DNA of 5,829 bases, from the NCBI GenBank assembly GCA_029861675.1, contig JAOTYV010000292.1, positions 1-5,829 on the forward strand, written 5' to 3'. Positions within the stretch are counted from its first letter, which is position 1. Every line of letters begins with the position of its first letter. The position numbers were made by a program, and so were the translations under genes. The DNA comes from Alphaproteobacteria bacterium (GTDB taxonomy: Bacteria > Pseudomonadota > Alphaproteobacteria > UBA8366). The notes below the pieces were generated by a model. The model did no database searches, had not been told where the DNA came from, and saw nothing but the letters and a program-made list of their open reading frames with translations. Shown in pieces: positions 1,072-5,829 of the stretch.

Positions 1072-3225
1072 ATGAGCGCGACCGGCCCCTGCGTGCTGGT
1101 GACCCGCCCGGAAGCGGATGCCGGCCCCTTGATCGCGGCGTTGCAGCAGCGCGGCGCGACGGTATTGGCGCAGCCGATGCTGCGCATTGACTTGAAAGAT
1201 GCTGATGCGCCTGACCTAGAGGGCGTCCAGGCGCTGTTGTTCTCCTCGGCGAACGGCGTGCGCGCCTTTGCCCGCGTGGCGGCCGGTCGCGCTCTGCCGG
1301 TCTTCGCCGTCGGCGACGCCACCGCCGCGGCCGCCCGCGAAGCGGGCTTTGGCGATGTGGCGAGCGCGGGCGGCGCAATCGAGGATCTGGCGGCATTGGT
1401 GGTTGCGCGCGGCGATCCGGCGGCCGGCGCGTTGCTGCATGTCGCCGGCAGCGCGGTCGCCGGCGATCTCAGCGGGCTGCTGGAGGCGGCGGGATTTACC
1501 GTGCGCCGCGCGGTGCTCTATGCGGCCACGCCGGCCGACGCGCTGGAGCCGGAGGTGCGGGCGGCGCTCGCCGCGGGAGAGCTGCACGCCGTGATGTTTT
1601 TTTCTCCACGTAGCGCCGCGACCTTTGCTAGTGTGGCGCGCGCGGCCGGGTTGGCCGAGTCGTGCGCGCGGGTGCGGTTGCTTGCTTTGAGCGGCGCGGT
1701 GGTCGAGGCGGCGGGCACGCTCTCCTGGGGCGGTGTCACGGTCGCCGCCGAACCTACCCAAGCCGCGCTGCTGGCCGCCTTTGACGCAACTCCTTTTGGC
1801 GAGACAATGACACAGAACGAAGACGCCGAAGCGACAGCCGCCGCCGGACAGGAACAACCGACCGGCGCGCTGGAGGCCGGGGCCGACGCGGTGATCGACG
1901 CGTTCGGCGGCATCCGCCCGATGGCCGCCAAGCTGGAAGTGCCGGTGACGACGGTGCAGGGGTGGAAGAATCGCGGCCGCATCCCCGGCAATCGCCACGG
2001 CGCGGTGCGCGCGGCGGCGGCCCGGCACGGGGTCGATCTCTCCACCGTCTCCACTGTCTCCGCCGCGCCCGATGCGGCGCCGGAGGAAGGGACGGCGGAT
2101 CGCCCGTCTCCGCCGGACGCGAAAGGCGCCGTCGAGGCGGCGCCGGAAAATGAGCCCACGCCGGCGCCCGGCCGGAAATCGGGCGGCGCGGGGATTGCCT
2201 GGCTCGCGCTCTGTCTTTCGATCCTGGCGGTGGCGGCGACCGTGACCGCGCCCTATTGGTCGCGTCTCGTTCCGCTGCCGGGATTGCCCGCCGCGCAGCA
2301 GCCGGCGGCCGGCGACCTCGACGCACGGCTCGCGCCGTTCGAAGCCGCGGCCGGCAAGCTCGACGGCGTGGCGGCGCGCCTCGCCGATCTGGACCGGCGT
2401 CTGGCGGCGCTGTCCGGTTCGGTCGCGAAGGGCGGCGGGGCGGTGGACCCGGCCGTCGTCGCGGCGCTGCGGCGCGATCTGCAGCGAAGCGGCGTGGAAA
2501 TGGAAGACCTCGCCGACCGGCTCGGAACGGCGGAAGCCCGAACGCAGGCGACCGCGCGCCGGGTACAGGAGGCCGTCGCCGGATTGCAAGGCGCCTCGGC
2601 GGCGCTGTCGGAGACGGTGGACGGCCTCGGCAAGCGAATCGCCGCGCTCGAGGCGCGCCCGCTGATCAGCGGCGAACGGCTCGCCGCGCTCGCGGTGTCG
2701 CTGGGCCAGTTGGAAGCGCAGCTTGGCGCGGGTGCACCCTATGACGCGGCACTGGGCCGCTTGCGCGGTCTCGCGGAACCCGACAAGCCGTTGATCGAGG
2801 CGCTGGTGCCATTGGCGGCGAATGCCGGGCGCGGCATCCCGACCCTGGCCGTGCTGGCGCGCCGGTTTGACGAGATCGCCCCGAAACTGACGGCGAAGCC
2901 CAAGGGCGCGGCCGAGCCGGGATTGATCGCGTCGATTCGCGACAAGGCGTTGTCGCTGGTGAACATGCGCAAGGTGAGCGGCGATGACGCGACGTCGCCG
3001 GTGACGCGGGCCGAACGCGCGGTCCGGCGGGGCGATCTGAGCGCCGCGGTGGCGGCGCTGGACGGCGTGGGCGACGCGGCCGGCGGCTGGGTCACCGACG
3101 CCAAGGCCCGCATCGCGGCGGACCGGGCGATCGACGCCGTTCAATCCCACCTGGTCGGCATGCTCGCCGCCGCCGCGCGCTCGAACGACCGCGCCGGGCC
3201 GGACGGGACATCCCCGGCGCCATGA
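1072..3225 (+). CDS. Uroporphyrinogen-III synthase fused in frame to a Mic60/mitofilin-like membrane protein
   Basis: One open frame of 717 codons carries what are usually two genes. Residues 1-240 form a complete HemD: VLVTRPEADAG at the N-terminus, ALLFSSANGVRAFA around 50-63, VFAVGD, LYAA with Tyr150 (the region of the conserved family tyrosine), MFFSPRSA, and the terminal EPTQAALLAA. This cytoplasmic enzyme cyclises hydroxymethylbilane to uroporphyrinogen III with inversion of ring D. After a short linker, residues 271-323 match the small HTH-like 'carph-isopro' domain (FGGIRPMA, TTVQGWKNRG, IP). An acidic, Pro/Ala-rich linker follows, then a single transmembrane helix at about 375-393, an Ala/Leu/Arg coiled coil (about 405-530) and the helical C-terminal mitofilin region (about 531-705). 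The positive-inside rule (GRKSGG before the helix) puts HemD in the cytoplasm and the Mic60 part in the periplasm, so the fusion is topologically sensible. An in-frame ATG at 1807 (Met246) could start Mic60 separately (472 aa), but its upstream GGCGAG is a poor ribosome site. The TGA at 3223-3225 overlaps the hemY ATG (ATGA). The start at 1072 is preferred over in-frame ATGs inside hemC. Domain calls are firm; fusion versus sequence error is open. Confidence 0.85.
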   Translation: MSATGPCVLVTRPEADAGPLIAALQQRGATVLAQPMLRIDLKDADAPDLEGVQALLFSSANGVRAFARVAAGRALPVFAVGDATAAAAREAGFGDVASAGGAIEDLAALVVARGDPAAGALLHVAGSAVAGDLSGLLEAAGFTVRRAVLYAATPADALEPEVRAALAAGELHAVMFFSPRSAATFASVARAAGLAESCARVRLLALSGAVVEAAGTLSWGGVTVAAEPTQAALLAAFDATPFGETMTQNEDAEATAAAGQEQPTGALEAGADAVIDAFGGIRPMAAKLEVPVTTVQGWKNRGRIPGNRHGAVRAAAARHGVDLSTVSTVSAAPDAAPEEGTADRPSPPDAKGAVEAAPENEPTPAPGRKSGGAGIAWLALCLSILAVAATVTAPYWSRLVPLPGLPAAQQPAAGDLDARLAPFEAAAGKLDGVAARLADLDRRLAALSGSVAKGGGAVDPAVVAALRRDLQRSGVEMEDLADRLGTAEARTQATARRVQEAVAGLQGASAALSETVDGLGKRIAALEARPLISGERLAALAVSLGQLEAQLGAGAPYDAALGRLRGLAEPDKPLIEALVPLAANAGRGIPTLAVLARRFDEIAPKLTAKPKGAAEPGLIASIRDKALSLVNMRKVSGDDATSPVTRAERAVRRGDLSAAVAALDGVGDAAGGWVTDAKARIAADRAIDAVQSHLVGMLAAAARSNDRAGPDGTSPAP
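1792..1810 (+). other. hemD / mic60 junction with missing stop codon
   Basis: At this junction the HemD frame runs through CCT TTT GGC GAG ACA into ATG at 1807 without a stop. A TGA at 1808-1810 lies in the +1 frame and overlaps the ATG as ATGA, the same coupled stop/start seen at the mic60-hemY boundary (3222-3225). One inserted or deleted base a little upstream, for example in CCTTTT, would therefore restore a classical two-gene arrangement with HemD ending here. In the sequence as given, the fused reading is the only one without an assumed frameshift. Confidence 0.6.
1882..2040 (+). other. HTH-like 'carph-isopro' domain ahead of the Mic60 membrane anchor
   Basis: These 53 codons (fusion residues 271-323) read ADAVIDAFGGIRPMAAKL, then VPVTTVQGWKNRG, RIPGNRH and a basic helix ending HGVDL. 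The G-G-I-R-P-M-A, T-V-Q-x-W and I-P elements are those of a short helix-turn-helix-like domain often found in alphaproteobacterial proteins, where it resembles a Cro/CI fold that recognises DNA or a partner. It sits between HemD and the transmembrane helix, on the predicted cytoplasmic side. A DNA-binding role is not shown; it may serve as a protein-protein module. Confidence 0.6.
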
Positions 3226-4577
3226 CCCGCACGCTCATTCTCGTCGCGGCCGTCGTCCTGGCCGCCGTCGCCGCCAGTTGGCTGAGTGGCCATCCCGGCC
3301 ACGTCACCATCGAATGGCTCGGTTGGCGCGCCGACACGTCCATTGCCATGCTGGCCTTTCTGATCGTCGTGATGGCGTTGATCGGCGCCGCCGGGCAACG
3401 GTTCTGGGGGTATTTGCGGGTCGCTCCGCGGCGGCTTCTGGAGACCTTCCGAGCGCGCCGGCAGCGGCGCGGCTACGAAGCGCTCAGCGCCGGCATGATC
3501 GCCGCCGCGTCGGGCGATGCGTCGAGCGCCGGACGGCATGCGCGGCGCGCCGAAACGCTGCTCGAAGATGCCGGGCTTACCCGCCTGCTGCGCGCCCAGG
3601 CGGCGCAGTTGGGCGGCGACGAAACGGCGGCCCGGCGCACCTATGAGGAAATGGCGGAACAGCCGGAGACGGCCCTGCTCGGCATCCGCGGCCTGCTCGA
3701 ACAGGCGGAAGCGAAGGGCGACAAGGCGGAAGCGCTGCGGCTGGCCGAGAAGGCCTACCGGTTGCAGCCGAACGCCCAGGGCGTGCTCGAGCGCCTGTTC
3801 GATCTGCAAGTGGAGTTCGGCCATTGGGCCGATGCCGATGGGACGATTACCCAGGCGTTGCGCCGCAAGATCATGCCCGCCGGCGATGCCCGCCGCCGGC
3901 GCGCCGCGGTGCTGCTGGCCCGCAGCGGCGAGGCGGAGCATGCCGGCGACATGGGCGCCGCGCTCGCCTTCGCCCGGGAGGCCCATCAGCTCGACCCGGA
4001 CCGGGTGGCGGCGGCGATCCGCCACGCGGTCCTGCTTGGCCGTGACGACAAGCAACGCCGCGCCGTCAAGATTTTGGAAAATGCCTGGAGCGCGCACCCG
4101 CACCCGGAAATCGCCGCCGCATATGCGGGCCTGTTTGAAAGCGACGACGTGCTGGCGCGGGTGAAGCGCTATCAGCGGCTGCTGAGCTTCCGGCCCGACC
4201 ATGTGGAAGGCCATGTGGCGCTGGCGCAGGCGGCGCTCGACGCGAAATTGTGGGGCGAGGCGCGCGCCCATCTGGGACATGCGGCCGAGCGCGGGGTAAC
4301 GCCGCGCCTGTGCCGATTGTTCGCGGATTTGGAAGAGTCCGAGCATGGCGATCTCAAGGCGGCGCGCCAATGGTTGGAGCGCGCCGGCACGGCGCCGCCC
4401 GACCCGGTCTGGGTGTGCGAGGATTGCGGCGCCACCGCCGGCGTGTGGAGCCCGCGCTGCGACAGTTGCGGCGCGTTCGACAGTCTCGAATGGCGTCCCC
4501 CGGCGCAGGCGTCGCACCTGCCGGCGCGGCCGCCGCAGCCGGCGCTGATGGACCGGCGGGGCAGCGGGCCCGCCTGA
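3222..4577 (+). CDS. hemY: HemY-like TPR membrane protein with C-terminal zinc ribbon
   Basis: This 451-residue protein belongs to the proteobacterial HemY family, which is unrelated to the Bacillus protoporphyrinogen oxidase of the same name. In order it has a first transmembrane helix at 4-22, a short periplasmic loop with HVTIEWLGWRADTS (typical HemY_N), a second transmembrane helix at about 41-57, a basic cytoplasmic stretch (RVAPRRLLETFRARRQRR), then TPR-like helical repeats over about 75-385 (for example GDKAEALRLAEKAYRLQP and GDMGAALAFAREAHQLDP). A four-cysteine knuckle closes the chain: C399-x2-C402 and C413-x2-C416, in CEDCG...CDSCG. HemY is implicated in late haem synthesis in the inner membrane, probably as a scaffold; no catalytic activity is assigned. 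Its ATG overlaps the preceding stop as ATGA, implying translational coupling. A strong hairpin 59 nt after the stop ends the operon. Confidence 0.9.
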   Translation: MTRTLILVAAVVLAAVAASWLSGHPGHVTIEWLGWRADTSIAMLAFLIVVMALIGAAGQRFWGYLRVAPRRLLETFRARRQRRGYEALSAGMIAAASGDASSAGRHARRAETLLEDAGLTRLLRAQAAQLGGDETAARRTYEEMAEQPETALLGIRGLLEQAEAKGDKAEALRLAEKAYRLQPNAQGVLERLFDLQVEFGHWADADGTITQALRRKIMPAGDARRRRAAVLLARSGEAEHAGDMGAALAFAREAHQLDPDRVAAAIRHAVLLGRDDKQRRAVKILENAWSAHPHPEIAAAYAGLFESDDVLARVKRYQRLLSFRPDHVEGHVALAQAALDAKLWGEARAHLGHAAERGVTPRLCRLFADLEESEHGDLKAARQWLERAGTAPPDPVWVCEDCGATAGVWSPRCDSCGAFDSLEWRPPAQASHLPARPPQPALMDRRGSGPA

Positions 4578-4635
4578 CCTGCCCGGCCAACCCGATCGCC
4601 AAGCATCCGGCCCGGTCGGGGCCCTGAATTGGGGG

Positions 4636-4660
4636 CGGGCCGGCCCAGAGGGCCGGCCCG
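4636..4660 (+). terminator. Transcription terminator of the hem operon
   Basis: A perfect 11-bp GC stem (CGGGCCGGCCC at 4636-4646, GGGCCGGCCCG at 4650-4660) closes on an AGA triloop, and two extra G-T pairs can extend it. It is followed by TTAGAGGGAGTTT, a poor T-tract, so intrinsic termination may be partial or aided by Rho. It lies 59 nt after the hemY stop. The near-symmetric stem could also work on the minus strand, but no converging gene is seen. Confidence 0.75.
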
Positions 4661-4777
4661 TTAGAGGGAGTTTACAAGCCTAGCAGTGTGAAGCGGTTTC
4701 ATGACTGCCGGGAGGTCCGGCTCGCGCCGCTTCCGTGATTTCACCCTGGCACGGTACGCGTTCGACAAATTCGATGA

Positions 4778-4793
4778 TGTGATTATCGTCACA
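4778..4793. promoter_or_regulatory. CRP/FNR-family operator-like palindrome
   Basis: TGTGA-TTATCG-TCACA is a perfect 5+5 match to the CRP half-sites TGTGA-N6-TCACA. Outside these arms symmetry is lost. In Alphaproteobacteria such sites may be used by CRP-like cAMP or other CRP/FNR regulators. No gene begins within 180 bp on either side, so its target is unclear; chance occurrence is possible. Confidence 0.4.
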
Positions 4794-4798
4794 ATTGG

Positions 4799-4818
4799 TT
4801 AATTTTTTATTAATTTTA
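4799..4818. repeat. AT-rich tract with TTAATTTT twice at 11-bp period
   Basis: TTAATTTT occurs at 4799-4806 and 4810-4817, so the T-tracts lie on one face of the helix, about 90-105 bp upstream of the tRNA promoter. In DNA of this GC content a 20-bp run with almost no G or C stands out. It may be intrinsically bent, an UP-like element or a nucleoid-protein site; which cannot be decided here. Confidence 0.4.
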
Positions 4819-4862
4819 CGACGCAATCGGTGTGGTAAAGGGATTGGCCGGGCGAATCGGTC

Positions 4863-4882
4863 GCGGGATCGACGATTCCCGC
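4863..4882. repeat. Inverted repeat, 9-bp arms with one bulge
   Basis: GCGGGATCG (4863-4871) and CGAT-T-CCCGC (4873-4882) pair across a single A, with one unpaired T at 4877. No T-tract follows, so it is not a good terminator; it could be an operator or a small RNA hairpin lying 24 nt before the tRNA -35 box. Confidence 0.35.
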
Positions 4883-4905
4883 AGGCAAATGGGGCGATTG
4901 GCCGC

Positions 4906-4934
4906 TTGCGATTTTCCGGCCATCCGCTTATATG
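4906..4934 (+). promoter_or_regulatory. Sigma-70 promoter of the tRNA-Thr locus
   Basis: TTGCGA (4906-4911) and TATATG (4929-4934) are separated by 17 nt (or TTATAT by 16 nt), the best promoter in the region. The expected start is near 4941, about 40 nt before the first tRNA-Thr 5' half. It therefore looks like the original tRNA-Thr promoter, now separated by about 283 nt from the only complete tRNA at 5224. Confidence 0.6.
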
Positions 4935-4979
4935 GTCCGCGCCGGCCGCGCATTGTTGCGTGGATTCAGGCAGTCCGGG

Positions 4980-5021
4980 GCCGCCTTAGCTCAGTTGGTA
5001 GAGCATCGCATTCGTAATGCG
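4980..5021 (+). pseudogene. Truncated tRNA-Thr(CGT): 5' half, copy 1
   Basis: Forty-two bases are identical to nucleotides 1-42 of the complete tRNA at 5224: acceptor 5' strand GCCGCCT, full D-arm, and the anticodon arm with CGT up to G42. Identity begins exactly at mature tRNA nucleotide 1 (flanking bases differ) and ends inside the 3' strand of the anticodon stem, where TTGGG replaces GGGGG. There is no T-arm, acceptor 3' strand or CCA, so it cannot make a tRNA. As the copy next to the promoter it is probably the original chromosomal 5' half left after an integration event. Confidence 0.88.
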
Positions 5022-5079
5022 TTGGGATAGAGGGAAGACAATAGTGAAACTAAGTGGTTAGGATTGCCCTGACCGGAGC

Positions 5080-5099
5080 TTTGCAACAAGTTTGCAACA
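5080..5099 (+). repeat. Phased direct repeat TTTGCAACA, spacer 1
   Basis: TTTGCAACA is present at 5080-5088 and 5091-5099, period 11 bp, ending 3 nt before the second tRNA 5' half. Position, length and helical phasing resemble arm-type binding sites of tyrosine recombinases next to a core site. Confidence 0.6.
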
Positions 5100-5102
5100 T
5101 AT

Positions 5103-5141
5103 GCCGCCTTAGCTCAGTTGGTAGAGCATCGCATTCGTAAT
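5103..5141 (+). pseudogene. Truncated tRNA-Thr(CGT): 5' half, copy 2
   Basis: Thirty-nine bases match nucleotides 1-39 of the intact tRNA exactly, from the mature 5' end to the first base after the anticodon loop; AAGTAGG then replaces GCGGGGG. The anticodon stem therefore cannot form and no T-arm or acceptor 3' strand follows. It is three bases shorter than copy 1, placing the break point of homology at tRNA positions 39-42. A 10-bp palindrome, GTCGGCCGAC, lies just downstream at 5148-5157. Confidence 0.88.
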
Positions 5142-5201
5142 AAGTAGGTCGGCCGACAAACGACGGTGGATATCAATAGATTAAGGGAATAGGAATCGCT
5201 T

Positions 5202-5222
5202 TAATACGGTTCTAATACGGTT
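5202..5222 (+). repeat. Phased direct repeat TAATACGGTT, spacer 2
   Basis: TAATACGGTT is present at 5202-5211 and 5213-5222, period 11 bp, ending 1 nt before the intact tRNA. It occupies the same place as the TTTGCAACA pair does before copy 2, and both pairs are preceded by GCTTT, but the motif is different. This suggests equivalent arm sites for recombinases of different specificity. The TAATAC could alternatively supply a -10 box for the tRNA, though no good -35 is seen. Confidence 0.6.
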
Positions 5223-5223
5223 A

Positions 5224-5299
5224 GCCGCCTTAGCTCAGTTGGTAGAGCATCGCATTCGTAATGCGGGGGTCGCGTGTTCGAGTCACGCAGGCGGCACCA
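5224..5299 (+). tRNA. tRNA-Thr(CGT)
   Basis: A complete 76-nt cloverleaf with encoded CCA. The acceptor stem GCCGCCT pairs with AGGCGGC; the D-arm is GCTC-AGTTGGTA-GAGC; the anticodon stem TCGCA/TGCGG (one T-G pair) closes the loop TTCGTAA with anticodon CGT at 5257-5259, reading ACG; the variable region is GGGTC; the T-arm is GCGTG-TTCGAGT-CACGC; the discriminator is A73 followed by CCA at 5297-5299. No mismatches are seen, so it should be functional. Its first 39-42 bases are repeated twice upstream, so by the integration model its 5' half came from a mobile element. It has no strong promoter of its own close by and is probably read from the promoter at 4906-4934. Confidence 0.97.
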
Positions 5300-5318
5300 T
5301 CCTTCTAAACCGGACAAA

Positions 5319-5829
5319 ATGCTCCTGACGCGATTTATCGCATCGATCCTTCTCTCTATTTTCGCCGGCACTGTTGTTGCGCAGGCAGGAATCCCCTTCG
5401 ACACGTTTGTTGTCGGACTGAGGCCCGTTTGCGCGACGTCGCCGTCTCCGGATTGCGCAAGCGCCATCGGCTCTTTCCTGGATTCCAACGCGAATGGGGG
5501 TGTCGAAATTGCGGAGGTTAAGCGCGCGCGCGACCGAGCCAAGCGCTCGGTTCGGAACAATAACTCGTCCCTCAACTCGATCGAGAGGAGCATGATAAGC
5601 GTGGCGCTGATGGTTTTTCAGCACGCGGGCATACGGAAGGTGTTCGCTAATTTCGACACCGACGCCGACGGTAGCCTGAGCCAAAGTGAACTATTCGCCG
5701 ATTTCCGCCTCGATCAGAGGCCATTTAAGGATGTGATTGCGGACCCCAAAGGCGTTGACTGGAAGAGTTTCGCCGCGCGCTTCGGCAAGGTTGGGTTTCT
5801 GATAACGGATTTGCTTCCACCCTCACATC
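5319..5829 (+). CDS. Secreted EF-hand (calcium-binding) protein, C-terminus outside the window
   Basis: An open frame of 170 codons that is still open at the window end. Residues 1-23 form a clear Sec signal peptide: MLLTR, a hydrophobic core, and A-Q-A as a plausible signal peptidase site. Two canonical 12-residue EF-hand loops follow: D55-S-N-A-N-G-G-V-E-I-A-E66 and D113-T-D-A-D-G-S-L-S-Q-S-E124, each with acidic or amide ligands at 1, 3 and 5, Gly at 6 and Glu at 12. A weaker third helix-loop (about 142-155) may be degenerate. Cys38 and Cys46 could form a disulphide in the periplasm. A calcium-binding periplasmic or secreted role is inferred; no named family is recognised. The ATG is chosen because the signal peptide begins there; the ribosome site is weak (CCGGAC). 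It starts 19 nt after the tRNA CCA with no terminator or promoter between them, so co-transcription with the tRNA is likely. It is lower in GC (about 55% in its first part) than the hem operon. Confidence 0.8.
   Translation, partial: MLLTRFIASILLSIFAGTVVAQAGIPFDTFVVGLRPVCATSPSPDCASAIGSFLDSNANGGVEIAEVKRARDRAKRSVRNNNSSLNSIERSMISVALMVFQHAGIRKVFANFDTDADGSLSQSELFADFRLDQRPFKDVIADPKGVDWKSFAARFGKVGFLITDLLPPSH

Follow-up and report, generated by a model that had tools for sequence, protein, structure and literature searches.

The window, a 5,829-nt stretch of alphaproteobacterial DNA, carries three starts of tRNA-Thr(CGT) in tandem. We propose, with a confidence slightly above even, that each truncated copy together with the spacer behind it forms an attL-type site, that what was inserted was a unit without an element body, about 121-134 bp long, and that two such units, of types B and A, gave rise to the three copies. 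Relatives carry the same site empty or with an integrase-bearing insertion, spacers of separate genomes repeat one layout, and the type A spacer is homologous across two order lists.

The tRNA-Thr(CGT) array in the window

The gene order of the window is hemC-hemD-mic60-hemY, followed by the three tRNA-Thr(CGT) starts; the Pfam score of the mic60-like gene is below the cut-off. All copies lie on the plus strand and start at 4980, 5103, and 5224, which gives spacings of 123 and 121 bp. By sequence match, copy 1 holds nt 1-42 of the tRNA (4980-5021) and copy 2 holds nt 1-39 (5103-5141), and the last copy, an RF00005 match at 5224-5299 with nt 1-76, is the only complete gene. This arrangement agrees exactly with a preliminary description of the sequence. 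The first 39 nt are identical in all three copies, nt 40-42 are matched additionally by copy 1, and an exact 39-nt triplet inside 300 bp is not chance. The homology of every copy begins at mature nt 1 and ends just past the anticodon loop (nt 32-38), located at 5011-5017 in copy 1 and 5134-5140 in copy 2, confirming the end in the anticodon arm given previously. The RF00005 score is 69.4 bits for the intact copy and 29.5 bits for copy 1.

Copy 1 is the putative original 5' half of the gene and would form the B side of an attL-type site. A putative native promoter of tRNA-Thr(CGT) precedes it on the plus strand (TTGCGA, 17 nt, TATATG; 4906-4934); it was recognized by eye and looks intact, and a consensus promoter scan did not report this pair of boxes. 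The 150 nt that lead up to copy 1 can be aligned with the corresponding stretch ahead of the single tRNA in a relative, G001 (58% of columns, 75% ungapped). On the 3' side of the tRNA, at 5319-5829, a gene with EF-hand matches below the Pfam cut-off starts and is cut by the window end.

Empty, integrase-bearing, and short-unit sites in relatives

A search with hemY retrieved 24 loci. In the nearest relatives, G001 and G002 (HemY 61%), a single intact tRNA stands about 330 nt after hemY and no fragment is present; these are empty sites, as the preliminary description had proposed to look for. In the window, 402 nt separate hemY from copy 1. In G003 (L010), hemY is followed by a 5' half (nt 1-39 with two differences) and, 114 nt on, by a 371-aa tyrosine integrase ORF that matches PF00589, with Arm-DNA-bind_3 just at the cut-off. 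A further ORF with a helix-turn-helix match below the cut-off comes before the contig end. G003 is thus an occupied site with an integrase-bearing insertion and the 5' half left behind. Of the full element sought between a 5' half and an intact tRNA, the integrase gene is present in G003, and the intact tRNA and the right end lie beyond the contig. The three copies are not common to these relatives, two of which are empty and one integrase-bearing.

A pattern search found an exact 5' half in 25 of 385 class genomes, and twice in none. With up to three mismatches, the 5' half occurs in 32 of 43 genomes of the G001 order, and its pattern was found in 4 of 6 genomes in the G318 order and 28 of 61 in the G003 order. 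A tandem pattern requiring CGTAAT at the fragment end matched 0 of 43 genomes; a looser single-copy search recovered the units. The loci of 83 genomes were fetched and classified, 80 of them with tRNA-Thr(CGT) and 3 with tRNA-Thr(TGT), while G423 and G424 matched and were left out. Among the 80 tRNA-Thr(CGT) genomes, 70 are without a 5' half (none at ≤10 mismatches over the flank retrieved, in most cases about 1.5 kb), one is cut by a contig end, and nine are not empty. At least 300 nt upstream are visible in 68 of the 70 fragment-free loci. The hemY end lies up to 800 nt upstream in 48 of the 70 and at 932 nt in one, and the fetched piece holds no hemY in 21. In two of these 21, G004 and G005, other genes covering 5-6 kb separate hemY from the tRNA, and therefore a distant fragment could escape in some loci.

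The nine non-empty loci are the integrase-bearing site of G003, a fragment in G400 (whose contig ends 79 nt after nt 36), units in five genomes, and an intron in G416 and G417. The body-less units measure 124 bp in G402, 123 bp in G403, 124 bp in G443, 134 bp in G318, and 202 bp in G404, so that further short 5'-half units (123-134 bp), for which a search had been suggested, do exist. Fragment homology in the relatives ends at about nt 38-39. Compared over 38 positions with the tRNA of the same genome, the 5' half differs at seven in G403, three in G318 and G404, and none in G402 and G443; the G443 contig begins 103 nt before the fragment and so shows no hemY. The earlier proposal that incoming DNA brought a 5' half and crossed over in the anticodon arm is supported by the 70 fragment-free loci of 80 and by the 5' half followed by an integrase gene in G003.

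The tRNA-Thr(CGT) genes of G404, G416, and G417 (L072, L079, L080, L085, L086, and L087) are interrupted: about 220 nt are inserted after U36. The group I intron family RF00028 matches in G404 and G416 (53.4 and 59.9 bits), and G417 is alike by sequence; this intron sits within the integration core. We rejected it as the origin of the units: introns are found in the tRNA-Thr(CGT) of relatives and in none of the units, and positions 4560-5829 of the window gave no RF00028 match. In G442 (L146), the intact tRNA lies near the contig end and is immediately preceded by about 17 nt that resemble the tRNA start (GCCGCCTTAGTTCAGTT).

A recurring spacer layout

Spacer position 1 is the first base after the anticodon loop, and the IHF consensus used for the scan is WATCARNNNNTTR. 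All features given here lie on the plus strand. The unit 1 spacer (type B; 85 nt from nt 39, 5018-5102) is, from the spacer alignment and the layout scan, a putative P'-like arm. At position 31 it has an IHF-like site with two mismatches, AACTAAGTGGTTA (5048-5060); an equally good match appears somewhere in 733 of 1000 shuffles and at this position in 89 of 3000, and taken alone this prediction is weak. A direct repeat follows, in which TTTGCAAC stands twice with a period of 11 (5080-5098; copies at 5080-5087 and 5091-5098; 2 of 500 shuffles). The unit 2 spacer (type A; 83 nt from nt 39, 5141-5223) is homologous to the spacers of G402, G403, and G443. Its position 31 holds a match to the IHF consensus without mismatch, TATCAATAGATTA (5171-5183), which is equaled anywhere in 3 of 1000 shuffles and at this position in 0 of 3000. 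The direct repeat of TAATACGG, again two copies with a period of 11 (5202-5220; copies at 5202-5209 and 5213-5220; 4 of 500 shuffles), is kept in G402, G403, and G443. Both the TTTGCAAC and the TAATACGG repeats are putative arm-type integrase sites.

The best plus-strand IHF match starts at position 31 in units 1 and 2 of the window, G402, G443, and G318; in G403 it starts at 30, and the left end of G400 has it at 29, with one mismatch. These predicted sites are perfect in unit 2 and G318 and have two mismatches in unit 1, G402, G403, and G443. As a control, we scanned the 85 nt before the tRNA in 35 hand-picked loci of the 70 empty ones, and 0 of 35 hold a perfect match; because 10 of 35 hold one with one or two mismatches, the two-mismatch sites count by place only. 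The best IHF matches of the 202-bp G404 unit and the G003 left arm start at 139 and 52, which sets both outside the shared layout.

All six spacers with lengths of 83-96 nt contain an 8-nt direct repeat of period 11 that begins at 60-63. It is TTTGCAAC in unit 1 and TAATACGG in unit 2, G402, G403, and G443; in G318 the two repeat copies differ by one mismatch, and 66 of 500 shuffles are as good. The distance from the repeat end to nt 1 of the next tRNA is 4 nt in unit 1, 3 nt in unit 2, 6 nt in G402, G403, and G443, and 18 nt in G318; its position therefore varies less relative to the left core than relative to the right one. Both features at their set places appear in 0 of 3000 shuffles each for units 1 and 2, G443, and G318, a count that describes the layout and is not an independent test, since the position windows were set after the units had been seen. 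The near-equal unit lengths can be accounted for by a tRNA part of 38 nt joined to a single arm, which measures 83-86 nt (96 nt in G318). The preliminary description was right about the lengths of 123 and 121 bp, and this recurring layout supplies the account that it had left out.

The left ends of G404 (L085, 5681-5882) and G400 (L090, 8219-8333) align with each other (z 4.6) as a third spacer kind, with AAGACA..GTTC.ACC and GTGTGAA..ATATGTG in common. Structured RNA was rejected as spacer content: the five spacers folded gave z values of -0.99 to 1.38, none significant, and no Rfam family was found in the spacers of the window, L147, L070, L048, and L072.

The type A spacer family

The unit 2 spacer aligns over its full length with the G402 and G403 spacers (z 6.7 and 6.0; 0 of 500 shuffles as good), and the G443 spacer is 82-84% identical to those of G402 and G403. 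A model built from G402, G403, and G443 alone returned window unit 2 as the best match outside the training rows in 1.3 Mb (E 0.033); G318 was not recovered in the same search. The G318 spacer aligns with z 4.3 to G403, 3.4 to G402, and a weak 1.8 to window unit 2, and since the held-out model missed it, its membership rests on alignment and layout. The unit 1 spacer, with z of about 1 or less against the compared spacers, has by this measure no sequence relation to them.

G402 and G403 belong to the order list of G001, and G443 to that of G003. The HemC tree joins the window to G001, G002, and G004 as a four-row set (support 96/97), G403 to G404 (100/100), and G443 to G444 (100/98). HemC of the window is 64% identical to G443 and 63% to G001; on HemC alone, type A in the window and G443 may be of common descent. 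No HemC was found in G402, which was placed by its HemY end only (58% to G403). In G408 (L185), the hemC match holds one TGA. Sister pairs differ: G444 is empty and G443 has a unit, G404 has another unit and G403 type A, and G001 and G002 are without units. The content of the site therefore varies between sisters, while the type A spacer is kept across lists. Between G402 and G403, the spacer is 94% identical (five differences over 86 columns), compared with 65% for hemY DNA (48% at third positions). Type A was seen once per genome and solely at tRNA-Thr(CGT), and the exact arm pair likewise stands once per genome in G402 and G403, not in several copies. Further TAATACGG-like sites with one mismatch in G402 and G404 lie beside unrelated genes.

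Search for a parent element and an integrase

No cognate integrase, excised form, or full element of type A was found in searches of 384 and 367 genomes of the class, 43 of the order, and viral contigs; these searches gave known copies, chance sites, or repeats adjoining another gene. No autonomous parent with type A arms was found, and the G003 left arm differs from type A. Within the window, no integrase gene fits between a fragment and the tRNA, as the spacers of 83-85 nt are too short. No relatives of the G003 integrase turned up among viral contigs and phages, and one distant plasmid match was obtained. The G402 type A spacer gave short weak matches only against phages and plasmids, and three weak class matches to the G443 spacer have no tRNA nearby.

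The 5' half led in viral contigs to one prophage-like contig of conventional design, L025, which we rejected as a parent; at 1960-3270 it carries an intact tRNA-Thr(CGT) and directly after it an integrase-like ORF, recognized by eye, reading towards the tRNA. Among the listed phage matches to the 5' half, most carry a tRNA gene annotation, and the rest are without annotation. For TTTGCAACANNTTTGCAACA of the unit 1 repeat (5080-5098) and pairs of TTTGCAACA, the unit 1 kind, an integrase ORF lies within 260 nt in 10 of 32 viral stretches (three of them near-identical); one more stretch has its integrase 620 nt away, and 21 are without a recognizable integrase. Pairs of TAATACGG were not found near a recognizable integrase, either in viral stretches or at the extra sites of G402 and G404, and no integrase was detected in the ten viral stretches with such pairs (L101-L110). 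In nine of these ten, the period-11 TAATACGG repeats precede similar downstream sequence; L104 differs.

Seven distant integrase loci from other class members were also retrieved, and six show no tRNA in the fetched 18.5-20 kb. In the seventh, from G072 (L203; about 8919-10039, in integrase orientation), the integrase is next to a 47-nt tRNA-Met fragment (nt 31-77), with the intact copy 9.7 kb away; this is a 3'-fragment island.

Discussion

In the reading that we prefer, a tyrosine-recombinase crossover in the anticodon loop of tRNA-Thr(CGT) would leave an attL-type B-O-P' site each time. The inserted unit would combine 38 nt of the tRNA with a single lambda-P'-like arm, which has an IHF site and then two arm-type repeats. 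We infer that such units move, that the repeats are integrase sites, and that integrase supplied in trans, together with IHF, inserts the unit unchanged, perhaps in the form of a small circle. The three tRNA copies would result from the entry of two different units, type B and type A, and the last to insert would have supplied the 5' half of the intact tRNA (5224-5299). A unit may also bring a new tRNA promoter: G402 and G403 have a TATAAT box that lies 10 nt ahead of the tRNA, with no convincing -35 box.

The next tRNA half follows directly after the arm, and therefore neither a second arm nor a body is left. The regular size suggests that the unit itself inserts, rather than a large element that is later lost. 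Compared with the varied lengths expected from random loss, six spacers have one layout and four of them share sequence, so that the simplest reading is insertion of the unit itself as a one-armed attP. The main model of the preliminary description is supported for integration of a 5' half, and its loss of two large element bodies is less supported, given recurring units of 121-134 bp with one layout. The alternative that it mentioned, attP-like units of about 120 bp as the inserted item, fits better, with the unit 2 sequence kept in G402, G403, and G443.

In lambda (J02459), the start of the H' site TATCAATTTGTTG lies 26 nt beyond the annotated core and 29 nt beyond the overlap, on the strand that also carries the predicted IHF sites of the units; the three P' sites start, by eye, near +50, +60, and +70. 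The roles of H' and P' in attL are those given in PMC4880445, and the putative sites of the six short spacers follow the lambda order of a core, then an IHF site at a distance of about 30 nt from the overlap, then arm repeats near +60/+70. The units differ from lambda attL in having a tRNA half in place of attB, two repeats instead of three P' sites, no prophage, and the next tRNA within 3-18 nt. The window, where homology ends at nt 39-42, fits a lambda-type overlap that spans about 7 bp of the anticodon loop, with the core retained.

Insertions carrying a 5' half are already known, though uncommon. According to Islander (PMC4383910), 159 of 3919 islands have a 5' fragment, which like that of the window precedes the regenerated tRNA and has its orientation, and an anticodon-centered crossover, as in our reading, is one of two site classes. 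Islander requires of an island an integrase gene and a length of 2-200 kb; because candidates below 2 kb or without an integrase are dropped, units of the window kind would not be listed, and a body-less unit of 121 bp is excluded. The archaeal pTN3-like integrases use the tRNA 5' half, and according to PMC8371274 and PMC5495485, the element carries this half and severs the tRNA from its original promoter, as the units would; in contrast to the units, these are full-size elements whose integrase gene is split by integration. In tRNA-dependent lysogeny, as outlined in PMC10865867, an important tRNA gene is again the target and putative arm-type sites lie beside the core, but the tRNA is not rebuilt and the phage supplies a whole tRNA gene. 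The titles and abstracts listed by our literature searches gave no account of short body-less units like these.

The sites could instead be remnants of integrase-bearing 5'-half elements that inserted once or twice, with deletions removing the integrase, cargo, and P arm and leaving attL beside a rebuilt tRNA. The integrase-bearing insertion at the same site in G003, the 5'-fragment islands listed in Islander (159 of 3919; PMC4383910), and the 202-bp G404 unit, which is longer and without the short-unit layout, all speak for such a history. However, it does not readily account for one layout in six spacers of 83-96 nt or for the full-length homology of unit 2 to G402, G403, and G443, and random deletion is unlikely to end repeatedly 3-6 nt (18 nt in G318) beyond the repeats, before nt 1 of the tRNA, in six of six cases; we consider the remnant history rather unlikely. 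We regard as distinctly improbable a promoter or regulatory insert before tRNA-Thr(CGT) that is selected, vertically inherited, and occasionally lost by direct-repeat recombination. It would suit the contrast between 94% spacer and 65% hemY DNA identity in G402 and G403, where 7 of 38 positions distinguish the G403 fragment from the tRNA of that genome, as well as the TATAAT-like box noted by eye in both genomes. Against it, the tRNA halves are left without explanation, sister species differ in content, and the spacers have no significant RNA fold and no convincing -35 box. Moreover, G443, from the other order list, is 82% identical to G402 in the spacer and the window 62%, although the window groups with G001 and G002 from the order list of G402 (HemC of the window: 64% to G443, 63% to G001).

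Exact 39-nt repeats do favor misassembly, but the two spacers differ, the tRNA-proximal one is homologous to those of other genomes, and the same architecture with related but different spacers recurs in separate assemblies, so that an artefact of assembly or tandem duplication has only a very slight probability. A tandem duplication of promoter and 5' half was rejected, as the two spacers are unlike one another and, by eye, also unlike the region upstream.

Returning to insertion of the unit itself, we suggest tentatively, at less than even confidence, that the units are miniature gene-less integrative elements. Each would be an attP with one arm only, in which the tRNA 5' half contributes about 38 nt and the P'-like arm 83-96 nt, that forms circles of about 120-135 bp, uses an integrase in trans, spreads between orders, and stacks at tRNA-Thr(CGT), replacing the 5' end of the gene each time. 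Such elements would be the tyrosine-integrase counterpart of MITEs. MITEs are non-autonomous miniature elements that are short and non-coding, with conserved ends and a patchy distribution; they are transposase-driven, reach many copies per genome, and have a known autonomous parent. The units resemble them in being short, with no coding capacity, conserved ends, and a patchy distribution; unlike MITEs, they are site-specific at one locus, and no parent was found in the class and order genomes or viral contigs searched.

If the units move as they are, integrases would mobilize DNA more than ten times below the 2-kb floor of Islander (PMC4383910). The substrate would look like half an attP, and the minimal integration substrate would have to be rethought. 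There would also be an unsearched class of mobile DNA at tRNA genes, as a standard island finder demands an integrase and 2 kb. Even as remnants, the copies would represent repeated 5'-half-carrying integration at a single bacterial tRNA, and they provide a layout rule (loop, IHF site at +31, repeats at +62) for seeking such sites in other genomes.
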